Below the pieces are notes generated by a model that did not search any database, was not told where the DNA came from, and saw nothing but the letters and a program-made list of their open reading frames with translations. The position numbers were made by a program, and so were the translations under genes. A stretch of 58,863 nucleotides of DNA. Source: Marinicella sp. (GTDB lineage: Bacteria; Pseudomonadota; Gammaproteobacteria; Xanthomonadales; Marinicellaceae). This document shows positions 5,967 to 58,863 of the stretch, one piece after another. Location: the NCBI GenBank assembly GCA_028284365.1, contig JANQRW010000020.1, forward strand, positions 1-58,863, in the 5' to 3' direction. Each line of letters opens with the position of its first letter. Positions within the stretch are counted from its first letter, which is position 1.

Positions 5967-7086
5967 AGGCCTCGACTGTTAATTTTGCACATGCTTGCCA
6001 GGTGTATTTTTGAGCATGCTTAAGTCCGGACTTCGATGTTTTTTGTAACCAGCTTTCATCTGTCAATGCCTGGTGCAACGAAGAATGAATTGATTCTGTA
6101 GATTTGGCTTCGCACAACAGGGCATGACTGCTTGCGACCTCCTGCATGGCAGAATTGGCGCTGGTCAGTACCGGTGTACCCGAAGCCATCGATTCGATGA
6201 TGGGCAAACCAAAACCCTCATAAAGGGAGGGGAATGCAGTTAGTTTGGCTGCCGCATAAAGGTGTTGTAATTCAGTTTGGCTGATGTAACCTGGGCTGAT
6301 GATTTGTCCCTGATTAACCAGCTTGCTGATTTCTTTTTGTAAGTGCTGATCTAGCCAACCTTTGGAGCCCACCAACACCAAAGGATTGGCTTTTCTCAGG
6401 TTTTCTGGCAGGCGGGTATATGCCATGAGTAAACGCTTGAGGTTTTTTCTGGGTTCTGTGGTGGCCACAGACAAAACAAATTGTCCGTATTTAAGTCGGT
6501 ATTTTTCTAAGGTTACTGTGGTTTCTTCCTCGCTGTAGGGCTTGAATCCAGCACCCACACCCAAAGGCGTAACATGGATGTTATCGGCTGAATAACCATA
6601 GTGAGCAATGATTTCCTGTTTAACGTGTTCAGAAGGGACAATCAAGGCACTGGCCTGTGCCAATGTTTTTGGAATTTCACGATCTAAAAACTGCAAACGG
6701 TACTTGGGCTGGGTTTGTCGGTAATGAACGAATGACAAATCATGGAAGGTTGCCACTGATTTGCCTACAAAAGGCATCAAGATAAAATTAGGGCTGTGAA
6801 ACAGGTAATCATCCAACCCTTGGGTATGATGGAAAAATTTATTGGCTCGCCTTTTGGCATAGGTATTCAGTGCCAATGATTTAAATGGTATCCATTGGCG
6901 TAATGTGCTGATCCATTGGTTCTCAGCAGCAGCGCTGGAGACATCATTCACCCAATGGTCGGCTGAGAAAAATTTGATGTCTTTGATTTGTTGCTGTTGT
7001 TGCAGTTGTTGACCCAGCTGCAGGACATATTGGCCTATGCCCGTTATGGGGTAAGTGATGGCATCAACATTTAAAATGACTTTCAA
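5956..7086 (-). CDS. Glycosyltransferase family 4 protein
   Basis: A 376-residue GT-B fold sugar transferase, probably acting at the inner membrane on a surface polysaccharide or glycolipid. The N-terminal acceptor domain has ITGIGQYVLQL. The C-terminal donor-nucleotide domain (from about residue 190) has VATTEPRKNLKRLLMAY, LVGSKGW, ISQTELQHLYAAAKLTAFPS and the EX7E motif in LYEGFGLPIIESMASGTPVL. The donor sugar cannot be told. The gene stands apart from other glycan genes, upstream of two tiny membrane ORFs. Confidence 0.88.
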   Translation of the reverse strand: MKVILNVDAITYPITGIGQYVLQLGQQLQQQQQIKDIKFFSADHWVNDVSSAAAENQWISTLRQWIPFKSLALNTYAKRRANKFFHHTQGLDDYLFHSPNFILMPFVGKSVATFHDLSFVHYRQTQPKYRLQFLDREIPKTLAQASALIVPSEHVKQEIIAHYGYSADNIHVTPLGVGAGFKPYSEEETTVTLEKYRLKYGQFVLSVATTEPRKNLKRLLMAYTRLPENLRKANPLVLVGSKGWLDQHLQKEISKLVNQGQIISPGYISQTELQHLYAAAKLTAFPSLYEGFGLPIIESMASGTPVLTSANSAMQEVASSHALLCEAKSTESIHSSLHQALTDESWLQKTSKSGLKHAQKYTWQACAKLTVEAYEK

Positions 7087-17321: not shown

Positions 17322-19727
17322 ATGACCACCTGCTTTCATTGTGGCGAAACTGTTCCCAAAGGTTGTCAGCTAACCGCCGAAATTGCAGGCCAATCACAAC
17401 CCATGTGCTGTATCGGCTGTCAGGCTGTTGCTCTGTTTCTGGCTGATAATGATCATGAGGTGTTCTATGAATACCGACAGGATCAGAAGCCTGCGGAGCA
17501 AGTCGAAATAAATAACGCCAACTGGCAGCACCTGGACACCAAGGATGTTTTCAATGAAATTACCCAAGCACTGGATAATGACACCCACCAAATCACCATC
17601 AAGGTAGAGGGCATGTATTGTAGTGCCTGCGGTTGGCTGCTTCAAAAAGTGTTGAATAACTTATTGGGTATCTGCGAACTTCGAATCAATACAGTAACCC
17701 AAAATTTGCAAATTGAATTCAATCCTAAAGAAATTAAGCTGAGTGAGATTTTTGCACAAATCCAAATGCTGGGCTACCACCCCATGCAACAAAACAGCAC
17801 CGAAAACCCAGCGGATGATGCCAGAAAGGACCAGTTAAAAAAAATTGCTGTGGCGGGCTTTGGCATGATGTTTATCATGACCTTAGCAGTACCTTTATAT
17901 TCGCCCGATCAGTTCACTGTGGCACCACACATTCAACGCTTTTTTCTGATGATAAGTATGCTGATCGCCACTGCGGTCTATTTTTATTCAGGCATGAGTT
18001 TTGTGAATAATGCCATCCGTGATTTGAGAAACAAACATTTGGGTATGGACGTACCAGTGGCGTTATCAATCTCGCTGGCCTATTTCGTCAGTATTTACCT
18101 CAGTTTTAAACAACAAGGGCATGTTTATTTTGATTCCATGACCATGTTTATTTTCTTCTTATTGCTGGGACGTTATGTGGAATCTCAAGTCAAACATCAA
18201 GGCATGAATGTGCGTGAGTCGTTGTTTGCCTTAATTCCTGTCAGCACCCAAAGGATCATTTCAGATCAGGTTGAAACAGTACCCCTGAACCAAATCAAAA
18301 AAGGTGATCAGCTACTGGTTAAATCAGGTGAAGTGATTCCTTGTGATGGCGTAGTGACCAAGGGACATGGACAGGTCAATGAAGCCATTTTAACCGGTGA
18401 GTCACAACTGCTCAGTAAACACCAAGGTGATCTGGTTTATGCGGGAGCCACACTTGGTAATGGTCAATTAAACATAACCACAACTGCCAATAACCAAGAA
18501 AGTTTCTTGGCTAAACTGGCTGACTTGATGGAACTGGCACAAAGTAAGAAACCAGCCAGCTTGCAACTGGTGGATCAAATTGCAAGCTATTTTGTGGCAG
18601 GGGTTTTGTTATTGGCCTTGGCCACCACTGTTTGGTATGGCTTGAATCAAAATGATGCGTTAATGACAGCCTTGTTGGCGGTGTTGATTGCTACTTGCCC
18701 ATGTGCTTTATCACTGGCAACACCAACAGCCCTGACTGCCTCTGGTGTTCATTTGCTGCGCGAGGGCGTCTTGGTTAACAACACCGATGCCATTACCCGC
18801 CTGGCCAAAACCGAACAATGGTATTTCGACAAAACGGGCACCTTATCTGAAGACAAACTCAGCATACACCAACAGCATAAATTCATAACTATTGATGATA
18901 TTGACCTGGCGCAAATCACCAGCACTCTGCAACAAATCAGTAACCACCCAATTGCATCCGCTTTTCAACACCCGGAAACGTTGAAAGTTGAGGCTGCCGA
19001 AGAAGTGACCGGACGAGGTGTGAGTGGCATCATCAAAACCCAGTATGGAACAAACAAATGGTACATGGGTAGCAGCCAGTGGTTGCGGAGTTTAGCCTTG
19101 GACATACCTGAAACTGATGCGAGTTCTGAGTACACACAGGTTTATCTGGCCACTGCACAACGAGTCATTGCCCTGTTTGAACTACAAGTACCCATTCGCT
19201 CAGGTTCGGTTGAGTTACTGACTTATTTATCACAACAACAAAAACCACAAACCATCCTCAGTGGGGACAACCCATCAACCACAGCAAAATGGGCCGATAA
19301 TTTAGGCATTGAACACCATTATGGTGGCCTTAAAGCAGAGGAAAAAATCAACCACCTGGCCACACAACAACAGCTGGGAAAATCATGTACCATGGTTGGT
19401 GATGGTGTGAATGATGCGCCGGTTTTGTCACAAGCCGATGTATCTATCAGCTTAAAACAAGGTGCACACCTAGCACACTCAGCATCTGACATGATCGTTT
19501 TGGGTAAATCATTAACCCCCATCATCAAAGCCACCGCTGTTTCCACCAAAACCAATGCCATCATCAAACAGAACCTAATCTGGTCATTGGTATATAATCT
19601 CAGTGTGACTCCAGTTGCCATGATGGGCTTATTAGCACCTTGGATGGCTGCCATTGGTATGTCACTGAGTTCACTTATTGTGGTTTTCAATTCACGCCGA
19701 TTATTGAAAGGAGGTTATTCAAGTTAA
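17322..19727 (+). CDS. ccoI: Copper-exporting P1B ATPase for cbb3 assembly
   Basis: An 802-residue heavy-metal P-type ATPase (FixI/CcoI) supplying copper for oxidase maturation. It begins with a zinc-ribbon-like CFHCGE...CCIGCQA and an HMA domain with MYCSACGW. The core has eight hydrophobic segments, the actuator TGES, the metal-site CPC (ATCPCALSLATP), the phosphorylation site DKTGT, the P1B-specific HP (NHPIASA) and GDGVNDAP. The start at 17322 has GAGGG upstream; an in-frame start at 17292 would add ten unusual residues. It is separated from fixH by a repeat array but keeps operon orientation. Confidence 0.95.
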   Translation: MTTCFHCGETVPKGCQLTAEIAGQSQPMCCIGCQAVALFLADNDHEVFYEYRQDQKPAEQVEINNANWQHLDTKDVFNEITQALDNDTHQITIKVEGMYCSACGWLLQKVLNNLLGICELRINTVTQNLQIEFNPKEIKLSEIFAQIQMLGYHPMQQNSTENPADDARKDQLKKIAVAGFGMMFIMTLAVPLYSPDQFTVAPHIQRFFLMISMLIATAVYFYSGMSFVNNAIRDLRNKHLGMDVPVALSISLAYFVSIYLSFKQQGHVYFDSMTMFIFFLLLGRYVESQVKHQGMNVRESLFALIPVSTQRIISDQVETVPLNQIKKGDQLLVKSGEVIPCDGVVTKGHGQVNEAILTGESQLLSKHQGDLVYAGATLGNGQLNITTTANNQESFLAKLADLMELAQSKKPASLQLVDQIASYFVAGVLLLALATTVWYGLNQNDALMTALLAVLIATCPCALSLATPTALTASGVHLLREGVLVNNTDAITRLAKTEQWYFDKTGTLSEDKLSIHQQHKFITIDDIDLAQITSTLQQISNHPIASAFQHPETLKVEAAEEVTGRGVSGIIKTQYGTNKWYMGSSQWLRSLALDIPETDASSEYTQVYLATAQRVIALFELQVPIRSGSVELLTYLSQQQKPQTILSGDNPSTTAKWADNLGIEHHYGGLKAEEKINHLATQQQLGKSCTMVGDGVNDAPVLSQADVSISLKQGAHLAHSASDMIVLGKSLTPIIKATAVSTKTNAIIKQNLIWSLVYNLSVTPVAMMGLLAPWMAAIGMSLSSLIVVFNSRRLLKGGYSS

Positions 19728-33461: not shown

Positions 33462-33615
33462 CAATGGAGAGCCGGTGATCGGCTCGACCGGCGCTCTTGG
33501 TTGGTGAGCGAAGCGAATCAGAAAGAGTAAGCCCGAAATAAAAAGCCATGCTCGCCGTGGTCGCTTTCACATTAGTCGGGAACAAATTTGAATGAAGGCC
33601 CAAGAGCATTCCTTT
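33462..33615 (+). repeat. Modular hairpin repeat (family A)
   Basis: It begins with the hairpin GAGCCG-GTGAT-CGGCTC (33469-33485), then ACCGGCGCTC, TTGGTGAGCGAAGCGAATCA, AAGCCCGA, ATGCTCGCCGTGGTCGCTTT and CAAATTTGAATGA, ending CCCAAGAGCATTCCTTTATT. A second copy is at 45862-45966 and a diverged reverse copy is in 17046-17270. Stem bases differ between copies while pairing is kept. Confidence 0.85.
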
Positions 33616-33806: not shown

Positions 33807-34553
33807 ATGGCTTGGTACGATGACAATGAAATGTGGGCAGTTTTTTATGACTGTATGTTTGATCAAGACAGTTTTGTTCTTGCCAGCAAGCAGTGCCAAC
33901 AAATTTTAGACTTAGTTGCTCCGTCAGTTCAATCAGTGCTGGACTTGGCCTGTGGCCCTGGACGACACTTACTCGGGTTTGCTCGACTTAATTTGGATGT
34001 CACAGGAGTTGATACAAGTGGCTATTTATTGAATCAAGCAGCTAACCACTTAGAACATGAGCAGTTAGCTGCCAACCTCGTTCACACTGACTTATTAGCT
34101 TATAAGCCTAAACAAAAGTTCGACTTAATCACCAATTTATTCACTTCCTTTGGTTATTATCCAAGCGCCAAAGAAAACCAATTGGTTCTAAACAATGCAT
34201 GTGATTGGCTTAATGTGGGTGGCACTTTGGTTATTGATACTTTTGGCAAGGAACAGGCTGCCCATGTCATTGAACCTGTACATTGCACTGAGTATGAAAA
34301 TGGTGACATCCGTTTTGAGCGTCCACTGTTAACTGATGGCATGAGCGTTTATTCAAATGAATGGATTTTAGTTCGAGGCAATCAAGCGTATCGCTGGGAA
34401 TACGAACATTTTGTCTATTCTGCTAATGAATTAACTGCGATGCTCAAACAGGCTGGATTTGAAAGAATTGAAATTTATGGCTCATTGACCAAAGATGACT
34501 ACGATTTAGAGGCTGAACGATTGGTGGCTGTTGCCACCAAGGAAAGCTGCTGA
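33807..34553 (+). CDS. Class I SAM-dependent methyltransferase
   Basis: A 248-residue enzyme with SAM motif I VLDLACGPGRHLLGFAR, the acidic end of strand 2 in VTGVDTSGYLL, motif II-like FDLITNLFTSFGYY and motif III VGGTLVIDTFGKE. This matches the broad Methyltransf_11/25 group that includes small-molecule methylases. The start at 33807 (MAWYDDNEMW) is favoured because typical members begin with W/Y-rich segments just before the SAM domain; upstream in-frame ATG/TTG codons would add a non-conserved tail. Substrate unknown. A palindrome AAGCTGCT-G-AGCAGCTT overlaps its stop codon. Confidence 0.8.
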   Translation: MAWYDDNEMWAVFYDCMFDQDSFVLASKQCQQILDLVAPSVQSVLDLACGPGRHLLGFARLNLDVTGVDTSGYLLNQAANHLEHEQLAANLVHTDLLAYKPKQKFDLITNLFTSFGYYPSAKENQLVLNNACDWLNVGGTLVIDTFGKEQAAHVIEPVHCTEYENGDIRFERPLLTDGMSVYSNEWILVRGNQAYRWEYEHFVYSANELTAMLKQAGFERIEIYGSLTKDDYDLEAERLVAVATKESC

Positions 34554-34935
34554 GCAGCTTGACCAGCATAAGCAATGAAAGCATGACGGTTTGCCGAAGG
34601 CAAGAAGCCTTGATGTAATGTTCGATAAGCCGTGAGCGATGGCGGTCACTTACGTTCCAAACTCACGCGACAGACCTACATCCATGTAGGCCAATCAGAA
34701 AGTGTAAGAGCAGGTAAAGAAAGTAAGACGGTTTGGCAGTATGCCAAGACGACCCCATGGATGGGGGAGGTAGCCTCGAGTTTGGAACAGAGACCGACAC
34801 CTATAGGGATATAGGTGTTAGAGTCGAGTCTGGAACAGAGACCGACACCTATAGGGATATAGGTGTTAGAGTCGAGTCTGGAACAGAGACCGAAGACCCA
34901 AGGAAATTCCTTATAAAAAGGCTGGAGTAAAACAC
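34538..34935 (+). repeat. Dense array of hairpin modules with 48-bp tandem repeat
   Basis: Successive hairpins read: AAGCTGCT-G-AGCAGCTT at the methyltransferase stop; TTTGCC-GAA-GGCAAG (near 34590); CCTACAT-CC-ATGTAGG (near 34676); TTTGGCA-GTA-TGCCAAG (near 34733); CCCCAT-GG-ATGGGG (near 34752). Then follow TTTGGAACAGAGACCGA and a 48-bp unit with stem CACCTATA-GGGA-TATAGGTG, repeated with starts at 34795 and 34843, and a last partial unit at 34891 that ends in AGACCCAAGGAAATTCCTTA. There are no spacers of CRISPR type. The array fills the 421-bp gap between the methyltransferase and mscS. Parts recur at both ends of the window. Confidence 0.88.
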
Positions 34936-34974
34936 ACCAGCCCTCATGGCTTTTCCGCAATTGGATTGCCCTAA

Positions 34975-35832
34975 TCAGCTCCCACTGACCTGATGCATAT
35001 GAACATCTTGTTGTGGGTATGGGAAACTACAGCCACCCGCCTCAAGATTAACTTTTAACTGCTCCAACAAATCACCATAGACCGTCCAGTAATCATCAGA
35101 ATTACACCAGGGTCGCACAGCAAAATTAATACTGGAGTCGGCCAACTCCAATAACATAATGGTAGGTGCAGGATCTTGTAACACCAAATCATGTGATGTC
35201 ACTGTTGAGTGGATGATGTCTTTGGCTGTTTTAATATCATCGTCGTAACTCACACCTATAACTAAGTCCACTCGTCGAACATCTTGTGAACTGAAATTGG
35301 TGATGATGTCGGAAGTGATTTGTCCATTAGGCACAATCATTTCCTTGTTATCAGGCGTGTTAATGATGGTGCTGAAAATTCTGATTTCCTTGACCTTACC
35401 GGTTTTGCCTGCCACTTCGACCACATCACCCAATTTAAATGGCCGGAATAAAACCAACATCACACCAGAGGCAAAGTTTGACAGTGAATCCTTAAGTGCC
35501 AAACCAATGGCCAATCCAGCAGCACCCATAACCGCAATCAATGAAGTGGTTTGTACACCTAACTGACCCAAGGCCATGATAACAACGGCTGCCAAAATAA
35601 CATAATAAATTAAGTTTTTCAGAAAGTTAACCAGTATCGGATCATTACCTGTTCTGGTTAATGCTTTGGCCACCATATTAGACATCCATTTAGCCACCTT
35701 GCGCCCAATCCAAAAAATCAATAATGCTAAAATCAATGATTTCAGAATCCCAATCAAAGCTTCCGGATTATTGACAAAATCAACCACATAAGTTTTCAGC
35801 TGTTCCACAAAAGACATTTCTTTTTCTTCCAT
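34975..35832 (-). CDS. Small-conductance mechanosensitive channel, MscS family
   Basis: A 285-residue inner-membrane channel that opens under membrane tension to release solutes. Three hydrophobic segments (about residues 22-42, 65-88, 92-125), the last with the glycine/alanine-rich pore helix AAGLAIGLALKDSLSNFASG, are followed by the MscS beta domain (VLFRPFKLGDVVEVAG, VPNGQITSDIITNFS) and an alpha/beta cytoplasmic domain. Size equals E. coli MscS. Confidence 0.93.
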   Translation of the reverse strand: MEEKEMSFVEQLKTYVVDFVNNPEALIGILKSLILALLIFWIGRKVAKWMSNMVAKALTRTGNDPILVNFLKNLIYYVILAAVVIMALGQLGVQTTSLIAVMGAAGLAIGLALKDSLSNFASGVMLVLFRPFKLGDVVEVAGKTGKVKEIRIFSTIINTPDNKEMIVPNGQITSDIITNFSSQDVRRVDLVIGVSYDDDIKTAKDIIHSTVTSHDLVLQDPAPTIMLLELADSSINFAVRPWCNSDDYWTVYGDLLEQLKVNLEAGGCSFPYPQQDVHMHQVSGS

Positions 35833-58648: not shown

Positions 58649-58767
58649 CACACTCCTTTGTTTCAATTTGGTTAAAATCAGATGATAACACCTTATTATT
58701 TTGCTGTATATCAAAAAGCATTATTACACTTATTTAAAGAAAAATAATCTTGACTGTTTATAAAAAG

Positions 58768-58863
58768 GAATGTCTTTGGATCTTCGGTCTCTGTTCCAAA
58801 CTCGACGCTACCTCCTGCATCCTTGCAGTCGTCATTCAAATTTGCGTTGCACTGAGCTCAGTC
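58768..58863 (-). repeat. Dispersed modular repeat, window end
   Basis: On the minus strand: the perfect palindrome ACTGAGCTCAGT, then CAAATTTGAATGA (also at 33582-33594), the hairpin CTGCA-AGGA-TGCAG, GGAGGTAGCGTCGAGTTTGG, AACAGAGACCGAAGATCC and ACATTCCTTTTTATA. It is the single-unit form of the array at 34767-34918 without the 48-bp tandem units. The window cuts it off. Confidence 0.85.

Follow-up and report, generated by a model that had tools for sequence, protein, structure and literature searches.

What kind of element places a run of different hairpins, joined by recurring linkers, between two genes, and how were its parts brought together? This question was raised by a locus in the window, by which we mean the whole stretch of 58,863 nucleotides analyzed here, which is one complete contig of the 3.11-Mb draft genome of a Marinicella sp. 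(G000, 91 contigs; hereafter the host genome). An earlier note, made from the letters alone, had read the locus as a cassette-style repeat in which hairpins are exchanged between fixed joints. We compared the array with its copies in the same genome, with the corresponding loci of relatives, and with known families of small repeats.

Composition of the array and its copies

Relatives lacking the element, together with alignment to other copies, delimited a composite element GGAA...ATTCCTT of 372 bp on the plus strand (34541-34912). The array placed at 34538-34935 by the earlier note is real, but its true ends are 34541 and 34912, and the rest of that interval runs into a terminator-like inverted repeat (34920-34942) that is part of the flank and lies outside the element. 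From left to right, the plus strand carries a left-end hairpin AGCTGC-TGA-GCAGCT (34545-34559), whose stem varies among the 36 copies compared; a hairpin GGTTTGCCGAAGGCAAGAAGCC (34588-34609); a 48-bp unit of tail family D that lies on the minus strand (34645-34692), with its hairpin GGCCTACATGGATGTAGGTC at 34673-34692; a second GGTTT hairpin GGTTTGGCAGTATGCCAAG (34730-34748, direct repeat D2); a 48-bp unit with tail A and hairpin CGACCCCATGGATGGGGGAG (34750-34797), to which the CCCCATGGATGGGG hairpin belongs; a further tail-A unit with hairpin CACCTATAGGGATATAGGTG (34798-34845); an identical unit head to tail with it (34846-34893); and the right end AGACCCAAGGAAATTCCTT of the base element (34894-34912), defined by alignment of copies. 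The four units matched the covariance model (CM) of the unit at 39.5 bits (E 1.2e-8), 65.4, 73.5 and 73.5 bits, respectively, and the first three of these are self-matches by construction, as those units are themselves rows of the 83-row CM. One unit is thus on the minus strand and three run head to tail at 34750-34893. Together they make up 192 of the 372 bp. The sequence outside them shows only partial alignment to bare copies, so that more must have happened to the array than the addition of units to a base element.

The six or more perfect or near-perfect hairpins claimed for the array were recovered as seven, of six kinds, the two CACCTATAGGGATATAGGTG hairpins being identical. As RNA the array folds at -136 kcal/mol, compared with -104 +/- 4.9 kcal/mol in shuffled sequences (z -6.5, with 0 of 100 shuffles as good). 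The conserved linkers likewise held up: GGAACAGAGACCGA starts at 34784, 34832 and 34880 within the array, and AGACCCAAGGAAATTCCTT follows at 34894-34912. This 14-mer linker occurs exactly 62 times in the host genome, where about 0.02 occurrences would be expected by simple arithmetic, and with up to two mismatches it occurs 56 + 53 times, against 17 + 11 for a reversed control. BLAST of the array against its own genome found at least 55 places, with 40 of 174 candidates scored.

Further copies lie in the same window. A bare base element of 149 bp (33466-33614, plus strand) was identified by copy alignment and contains no unit match. Both window ends fall within repeat copies, as do several other contig ends of this genome. 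The cut copy at the contig start (1-104, plus strand) begins with an incomplete tail-A unit (1-37), continues with a tail-C unit (38-85) and finishes with the right end (86-104). The copy at the other contig end (58765-58863, minus strand) consists of the right end (58765-58783), a tail-A unit (58784-58831) whose hairpin CTGCAAGGATGCAG is of the CTGCA kind, and further element sequence. The same joints with different hairpins, which had been reported for both contig ends, were therefore found at 1-104 and 58765-58831.

In aligned copies the base element is about 149 bp long, starts with GGAG, continues into a left-end hairpin of the form stem-TGA-stem and finishes with AGACCCAAGAGCATTCCTT; the array at 34541-34912 shares both of these ends. 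Across 36 copies, some of them from sister species, 20 sequence forms of the left-end hairpin were counted, with 5 or 6 of its 6 pairs formed, although this pairing is partly by choice because the copies were found by allowing at most one stem mismatch. Uniform copies had been named as evidence against the cassette reading; copies in the host genome are not uniform, while four sampled copies in one sister species (G017) all span the same 258 bp, counted from the left-end stem to the right end. A comparison of the element ends GGAGAGCT and GGAATGCT, made by eye only, gave 6 matching letters out of 8. Two other arrangements were observed among the copies. One locus (L028) carries tandem copies of another repeat unit, about 66 bp long (GCAGGTAATGAAAGATTGGCGGTTTTATCGGAGATAAAGAAGCC...), at 395-721; in other copies, different hairpins were seen by eye between GGTTT and AAGAAGCC. 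At another (L183, 18104-18244) a REP-like stretch ACTTCGACTGAGCTCAGTGCAACGC lies within the loop of a base-element hairpin.

Structure and distribution of the 48-bp unit

The unit opens with a hairpin of 20 nt, closed by an NGGA loop, and its other 28 nt form a tail that may fold into a second hairpin; the tails were grouped into families A to E. We aligned 83 distinct units. The source was 142 sequence stretches (100 distinct), 82 of which were distinct with at least 5 of 8 hairpin pairs; three of these (L129, L133 and L135, of another hairpin kind) were omitted and four units of tails C, D and related were added. Nineteen different five-base inner stem arms were found among the 83 units, and GGA occupies tail columns 35-37 in 82 of them. 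The two-hairpin structure pairs in 88.3% of cells, compared with 27-39% in controls with the partner slid 1-3 columns along, the former value being inflated because rows had been selected for first-hairpin pairing. Double-sided changes were found in 117 cells, against 36 +/- 4 in shuffled alignments (0 of 500 as high) and 4-37 in the slid controls. The covariation check proposed in the earlier note thus gave a strong signal in the first hairpin, which holds 108 of the 117 double-changed cells, and little in the second, which holds 9, so that covariation supports the first hairpin and says little for the second. Columns 2-19 and 3-18 of the first hairpin are unpaired in 31 and 30 of the 83 rows, respectively. 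When four units were folded as DNA, two formed both model hairpins, and the others formed the first only or the first together with a different tail fold.

CM matches to the unit were found in 14 of 18 Marinicella genomes. The host genome holds at least 147 units and each other Marinicella genome 36 or fewer of those found, all of these counts being floors because at most 150 candidates were scored per genome. In a sample of the class, which was searched with stricter filters than the genus and with at most 16 candidates scored, so that the counts are likewise floors, at least 65 of 369 genomes (the host genome included) and 54 of 272 genera had matches. A 22-letter pattern of the tail-A type was found in 11 of 41 relatives, where Marinicella was the only one of 18 genera to carry it. 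A tail pattern also retrieved 40 stretches from a named collection, 31 of which are titled Gammaproteobacteria or a group within it; the others are six from two genomes titled Proteobacteria, one from a tubeworm symbiont and two from other phyla (L100 and L115), which have the tail pattern without a hairpin. Tail conservation in the rows from this collection is partly built in, since they were gathered by tail search. One of the two stretches from other phyla (L100, titled Verrucomicrobia, 6088-6109) has the exact tail and no hairpin, which could reflect chance, transfer or contamination. Carriage on plasmids or phages was considered as well, and a query of one 48-bp unit matched neither collection.

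Units and composite element insert precisely without a fixed target duplication

Comparisons of filled and empty copies showed what is gained at each site. Two base-element copies, one empty (L195) and one filled (L056), are one 48-bp unit apart at GAATGA|AGACCC and also differ by two letters in a nearby loop. In M. litoralis, the REP GTCATCCTGAGCGTAGYCGA|AGGATCTC was found empty in three cases and filled with 48 bp in four (one pattern, eight loci), and within a single M. gelatinilytica locus a repeat occurs once empty and once filled. In at least four genomes outside Marinicella, a unit lies inside the loop of the REP GTCATTCCCGC...GCGGGAATC. Inserts of about 50 bp that resemble another unit family split a CTATA hairpin loop (L019) and the tail loop GTTTGG|AACAG (L015). 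A fixed target duplication was rejected for the unit, as the two sides of its junctions, read as ATGA|...CCGA| and, from an alignment, as AGC|...CGA|, have either two letters in common or none. Among 107 distinct contexts, tandems included, the three letters to the left of the unit are CGA in 29, TGA in 19, AGC in 17 and GTA in 11, with the rest fewer, and the two letters to its right are AG in 42, GA in 26, CG in 21 and GG in 11.

The composite is an insertion too. The methyltransferase upstream of the array has a match in 17 of 18 genomes of the genus, the host genome included. The alignment distance between the methyltransferase and MscS is 428 bp in the host genome. In all 14 loci of relatives where both genes are present it is 42-125 bp, and none of these loci contains a match to the array sequence. 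The array flanks rejoin as ...GCC ACC AAA TAA AAA GGC, which resembles the gene ends of the seven relatives compared. As the species are far apart, the 14 empty sites show absence, and base-by-base comparison applies to the gene end. The insertion point of the composite lies within the last sense codon of the methyltransferase gene, after its second base. The element also provides the stop codon of this gene (34551-34553) and parts the gene from the terminator-like inverted repeat. In one relative (G015), a weak base-element match (69%; L216, 2800-2911) lies in the methyltransferase locus away from the array site.

A fixed target duplication was rejected for the element as well. The mean flanking direct repeat was 1.64, compared with 1.29 +/- 0.27 in shuffled pairs, among 33 copies with enough flank out of 34 picked by eye from 95 rows, most of the others being false pairs. 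One of the 33 copies has a flanking direct repeat of 17 bp and all others have 4 or fewer. The exceptional copy (L149, contig 44 of the host genome, element at about 18550-18685) has the perfect 17-bp repeat AGTTAGACCAACACATC, which a clean insertion leaves unexplained. All these comparisons show that units and composite are precise insertions without a fixed target duplication.

Units were also found within genes. Among the 20 loci taken from the class search, several carry a unit within a long open frame. In miaB of one genome (G279), the unit contributes 16 in-frame codons, and alignment to the solved MiaB 7mjv shows a gap of 15 residues at that place. The gcvT product of another genome (G207), where the unit lies on the other strand, gains about 30 residues relative to the solved aminomethyltransferase 3a8i, which we take to be the E. 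coli structure. A dehydratase-like protein (G158) has 16 extra codons at a spot outside the coverage of the solved relatives found. Open frames of more than 150 codons enclose none of the 23 unit clusters in an 832-kb sample of the host genome. These clusters derive from 40 of 48 CM matches, after omission of the seven with the weakest scores and of one truncated by a contig end, and the gene calls around them are plain open frames. Both orientations occur in 6 of the 23 clusters, and the remainder are single or head to tail. Where both neighbors are visible (n = 15), the flanking frames are co-directional for 10 clusters, convergent for 4 and divergent for 1.

Origin of the mosaic, possible movers and relation to known repeats

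We consider it probable that the array is a non-coding, non-autonomous mobile element of Marinicella, about 149 bp when bare, that has been enlarged by the nested insertion of smaller mobile units. The mobilizing enzyme would act in trans and would recognize a folded strand rather than the stem sequence; we infer such recognition from the covariation, the clean junctions and the loop targets. Tandem 48-bp copies may grow and shrink through insertion at the unit's own CGA end or through slippage. Against this reading, copying of the composite or gene conversion could be the source of the many identical copies. The array appears to be largely selfish DNA, sited between genes where insertion is tolerated. 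As for the mover, a single-strand activity (IS200/IS605-like, peel-and-paste) or a comparable one, lost here or outside the searched families, seems the most plausible candidate, and we put it forward tentatively, as something that may be so rather than something we expect. As no match to Y1_Tnp, RVT_1 or IS110 was found in the host genome and the Y1 loci searched are free of units, the single-strand step is one that we infer. IS110 itself matched in 3 of 10 chosen genomes of the genus at E 0.001, 2 of them over the cut-off.

The units might instead be REP/REPIN elements of the ordinary GTAG type that a RAYT (Y1 transposase) mobilizes, a reading we regard as rather unlikely. Tails of the 83 units start with GTAG in 33, TTAG in 29, CTAG in 8, ATAG in 6 and other letters in 7, opposed unit pairs exist in the six mixed clusters described above, and published REPs also lie within genes and palindromes (passages of PMC3733652). 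Y1_Tnp was commoner in unit-positive genomes of the class sample (59 of 65) than in the others (181 of 304; Fisher 3e-7), and was present in 17 of 20 chosen unit-bearing genomes and in 12 of 18 genomes of the genus. However, neither the host genome, the richest of the genus genomes searched, nor M. litoralis (G013) has a Y1_Tnp match, and 30 chosen Y1 loci (95 kb; 27 from unit-bearing genomes and three from genomes without units, some cut by contig ends) contained no unit match. The excess is also not significant among the 15 genomes with the strongest unit match (12 of 15, p 0.28), and weak model matches may themselves be REPs. The absence of Y1_Tnp from the host genome and the unit-free Y1 loci weaken the case for RAYT as the sole mover.

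A bolder version of the preferred reading, in which nested mobile units enlarge a mobile element, would make the units a new class of mobile DNA of about 48 bp across the Gammaproteobacteria, one of the smallest with clean insertion, moved as a folded single strand by something other than RAYT, reverse transcriptase or IS110, with the nearly constant A-N-GGA loop, carried on a stem free to change, as the recognized feature. We think this unlikely. If it were true, the loop would double as a CsrA/RsmA site in RNA, and every jump would set down another Csr site, genes included.

Arrays might also trade hairpins at the joints, through homologous recombination, gene conversion or template switching and without any transposition of units, and the combinations of hairpins and tails favor such exchange. 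Among 104 unit occurrences of the host genome in distinct contexts, of which a few places in two loci may be double-counted, tail A is joined to five kinds of hairpin (CTATA 23, CTGCA 25, CCCCA 3, CGCCA 2 and CGGCA 1) and stands without a hairpin in 4 places, and three different tails are found after the hairpin CTATA (A 23, C 17 and E 4); identical units also stand in tandem. The exchangeability proposed in the earlier note is therefore partly upheld, with fair independence of hairpins from joints for tail A and CTATA, whereas tails B and D have nearly fixed partners (CGCCA in 9 of 10 and CTACA in 11 of 12, respectively). The idea of a hairpin swapped between fixed joints fared less well, since filled and empty copies, where they can be compared, are set apart by an entire unit of about 48 bp, linker as well as hairpin. 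This 48-bp difference, together with single units in unrelated repeats and genes, where no joint is available for recombination, makes exchange very unlikely as the explanation.

The arrays might also act as RNA, with units serving as CsrA/RsmA sites that titrate CsrA or regulate neighboring genes. RUACARGGAUGU has been given as the SELEX consensus for CsrA/RsmA, and in P. putida Rsm proteins bind a site that includes CATGGATG (both in passages of PMC6849547). An A-N-GGA loop was found in 77 of the 83 units and CANGGANG in 61; the A before N-GGA is kept in 82, while its partner is T in 73, A in 8, G in 1 and C in 1. Most unit loops fit the CsrA/RsmA consensus, and CsrA is encoded in the host genome. 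Against such a role, units beside co-directional genes in the 832-kb sample show no strand bias (10 on the gene strand and 9 on the opposite one), both orientations occur within one array, and one relative (G015, a draft of 460 contigs) has 34 units and no CsrA match. An Rfam search of the window at gathering level gave no match, CsrB/RsmZ included, and a permissive search of 34450-35000 gave three chance-level matches, among them P26 and TCL6_1. We regard a Csr role as a bold idea rather than the main explanation, and its probability as very low, somewhat below that of exchange. CsrA matched in 15 of 18 Marinicella genomes, the exceptions being the drafts G015, G008 and G010, from which the sequence may be missing.

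Spread through RNA and reverse transcription, to which the strong RNA structure and the single 17-bp flanking duplication (L149) might point, is highly improbable, as RVT_1 has no match in the host genome or in 15 of the 17 other genomes of the genus (present in 2 of 18).

We compared the nested element with known systems. Like REP/BIME/REPIN elements of the GTAG superfamily (Di Nocera et al. 2013; passages of PMC3733652), the units are short intergenic palindromes with occasional in-frame gene copies, and part of them have a GTAG-like tag before the second hairpin. They differ from REP/REPIN in that the Marinicella unit is a 48-bp hairpin pair with swapped stems and a near-constant NGGA loop, that the richest genome is without a RAYT match, that no unit lies beside the Y1 genes examined, and that arrays are head to tail as well as opposed. 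CGTC-tagged REPs include Neisseria dRS3 and Rickettsia RPE-4 and RPE-6, and are likewise palindromic and without a known transposase, with dimers reported within longer palindromes (passages of PMC3733652). In contrast to these, the REP GTCATTCCCGC...GCGGGAATC, which we ourselves assign to the CGTC type, is the host, and the unit lies in its loop. Rickettsia palindromic elements (RPE), compared by their description in parts of PMC3733652, belong to another lineage and are also palindromic and in frame within genes. In-frame insertion of the RPE type into conserved genes was found in miaB and gcvT of other genomes, but not in the sample of the host genome. The BOX elements of Streptococcus pneumoniae are modular as well, with a variable number of central modules and repeats nested in repeats (passages of PMC3049150). 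BOX is from another phylum, and the unit also stands alone in genes and in other repeats; the comparison covered the layout. Two further classes were considered: the fixed-size target duplication of a MITE of a DDE-type transposon was not found, and of the features of a CsrB/RsmZ-type sponge RNA, many A-N-GGA hairpins were found but a single transcribed strand and an Rfam match were not. The small dispersed repeats (SDR) of cyanobacteria are very small and seemingly mobile. They are mentioned in part of PMC3116915.

Our literature searches found no paper on intragenic palindromic GGAT repeats of gammaproteobacteria and, among the papers listed, none naming Marinicella, and a search on CsrA with repetitive extragenic palindromic sequences gave, by title, nothing on the topic. 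As far as these searches go, the unit family is undescribed, and it is best filed with the small palindromic mobile repeats (REP, RPE and BOX-like). Nested and in-gene copies have already been published for other repeat families (passages of PMC3733652 and PMC3049150). Within the same reach of searching, what is new lies in the detail, namely the exact 48-bp ends, the near-constant loop on changing stems, the wide spread and the lack of a known mover in the richest host. We know of no settled account of how REP, RPE, SDR or BOX move. In the present family, the exact unit ends, the covariation of the stem and the lack of the usual enzyme in a unit-rich genome make the question of the mover directly testable, and the array shows a route by which complex intergenic mosaics can arise, namely small elements jumping into one another.
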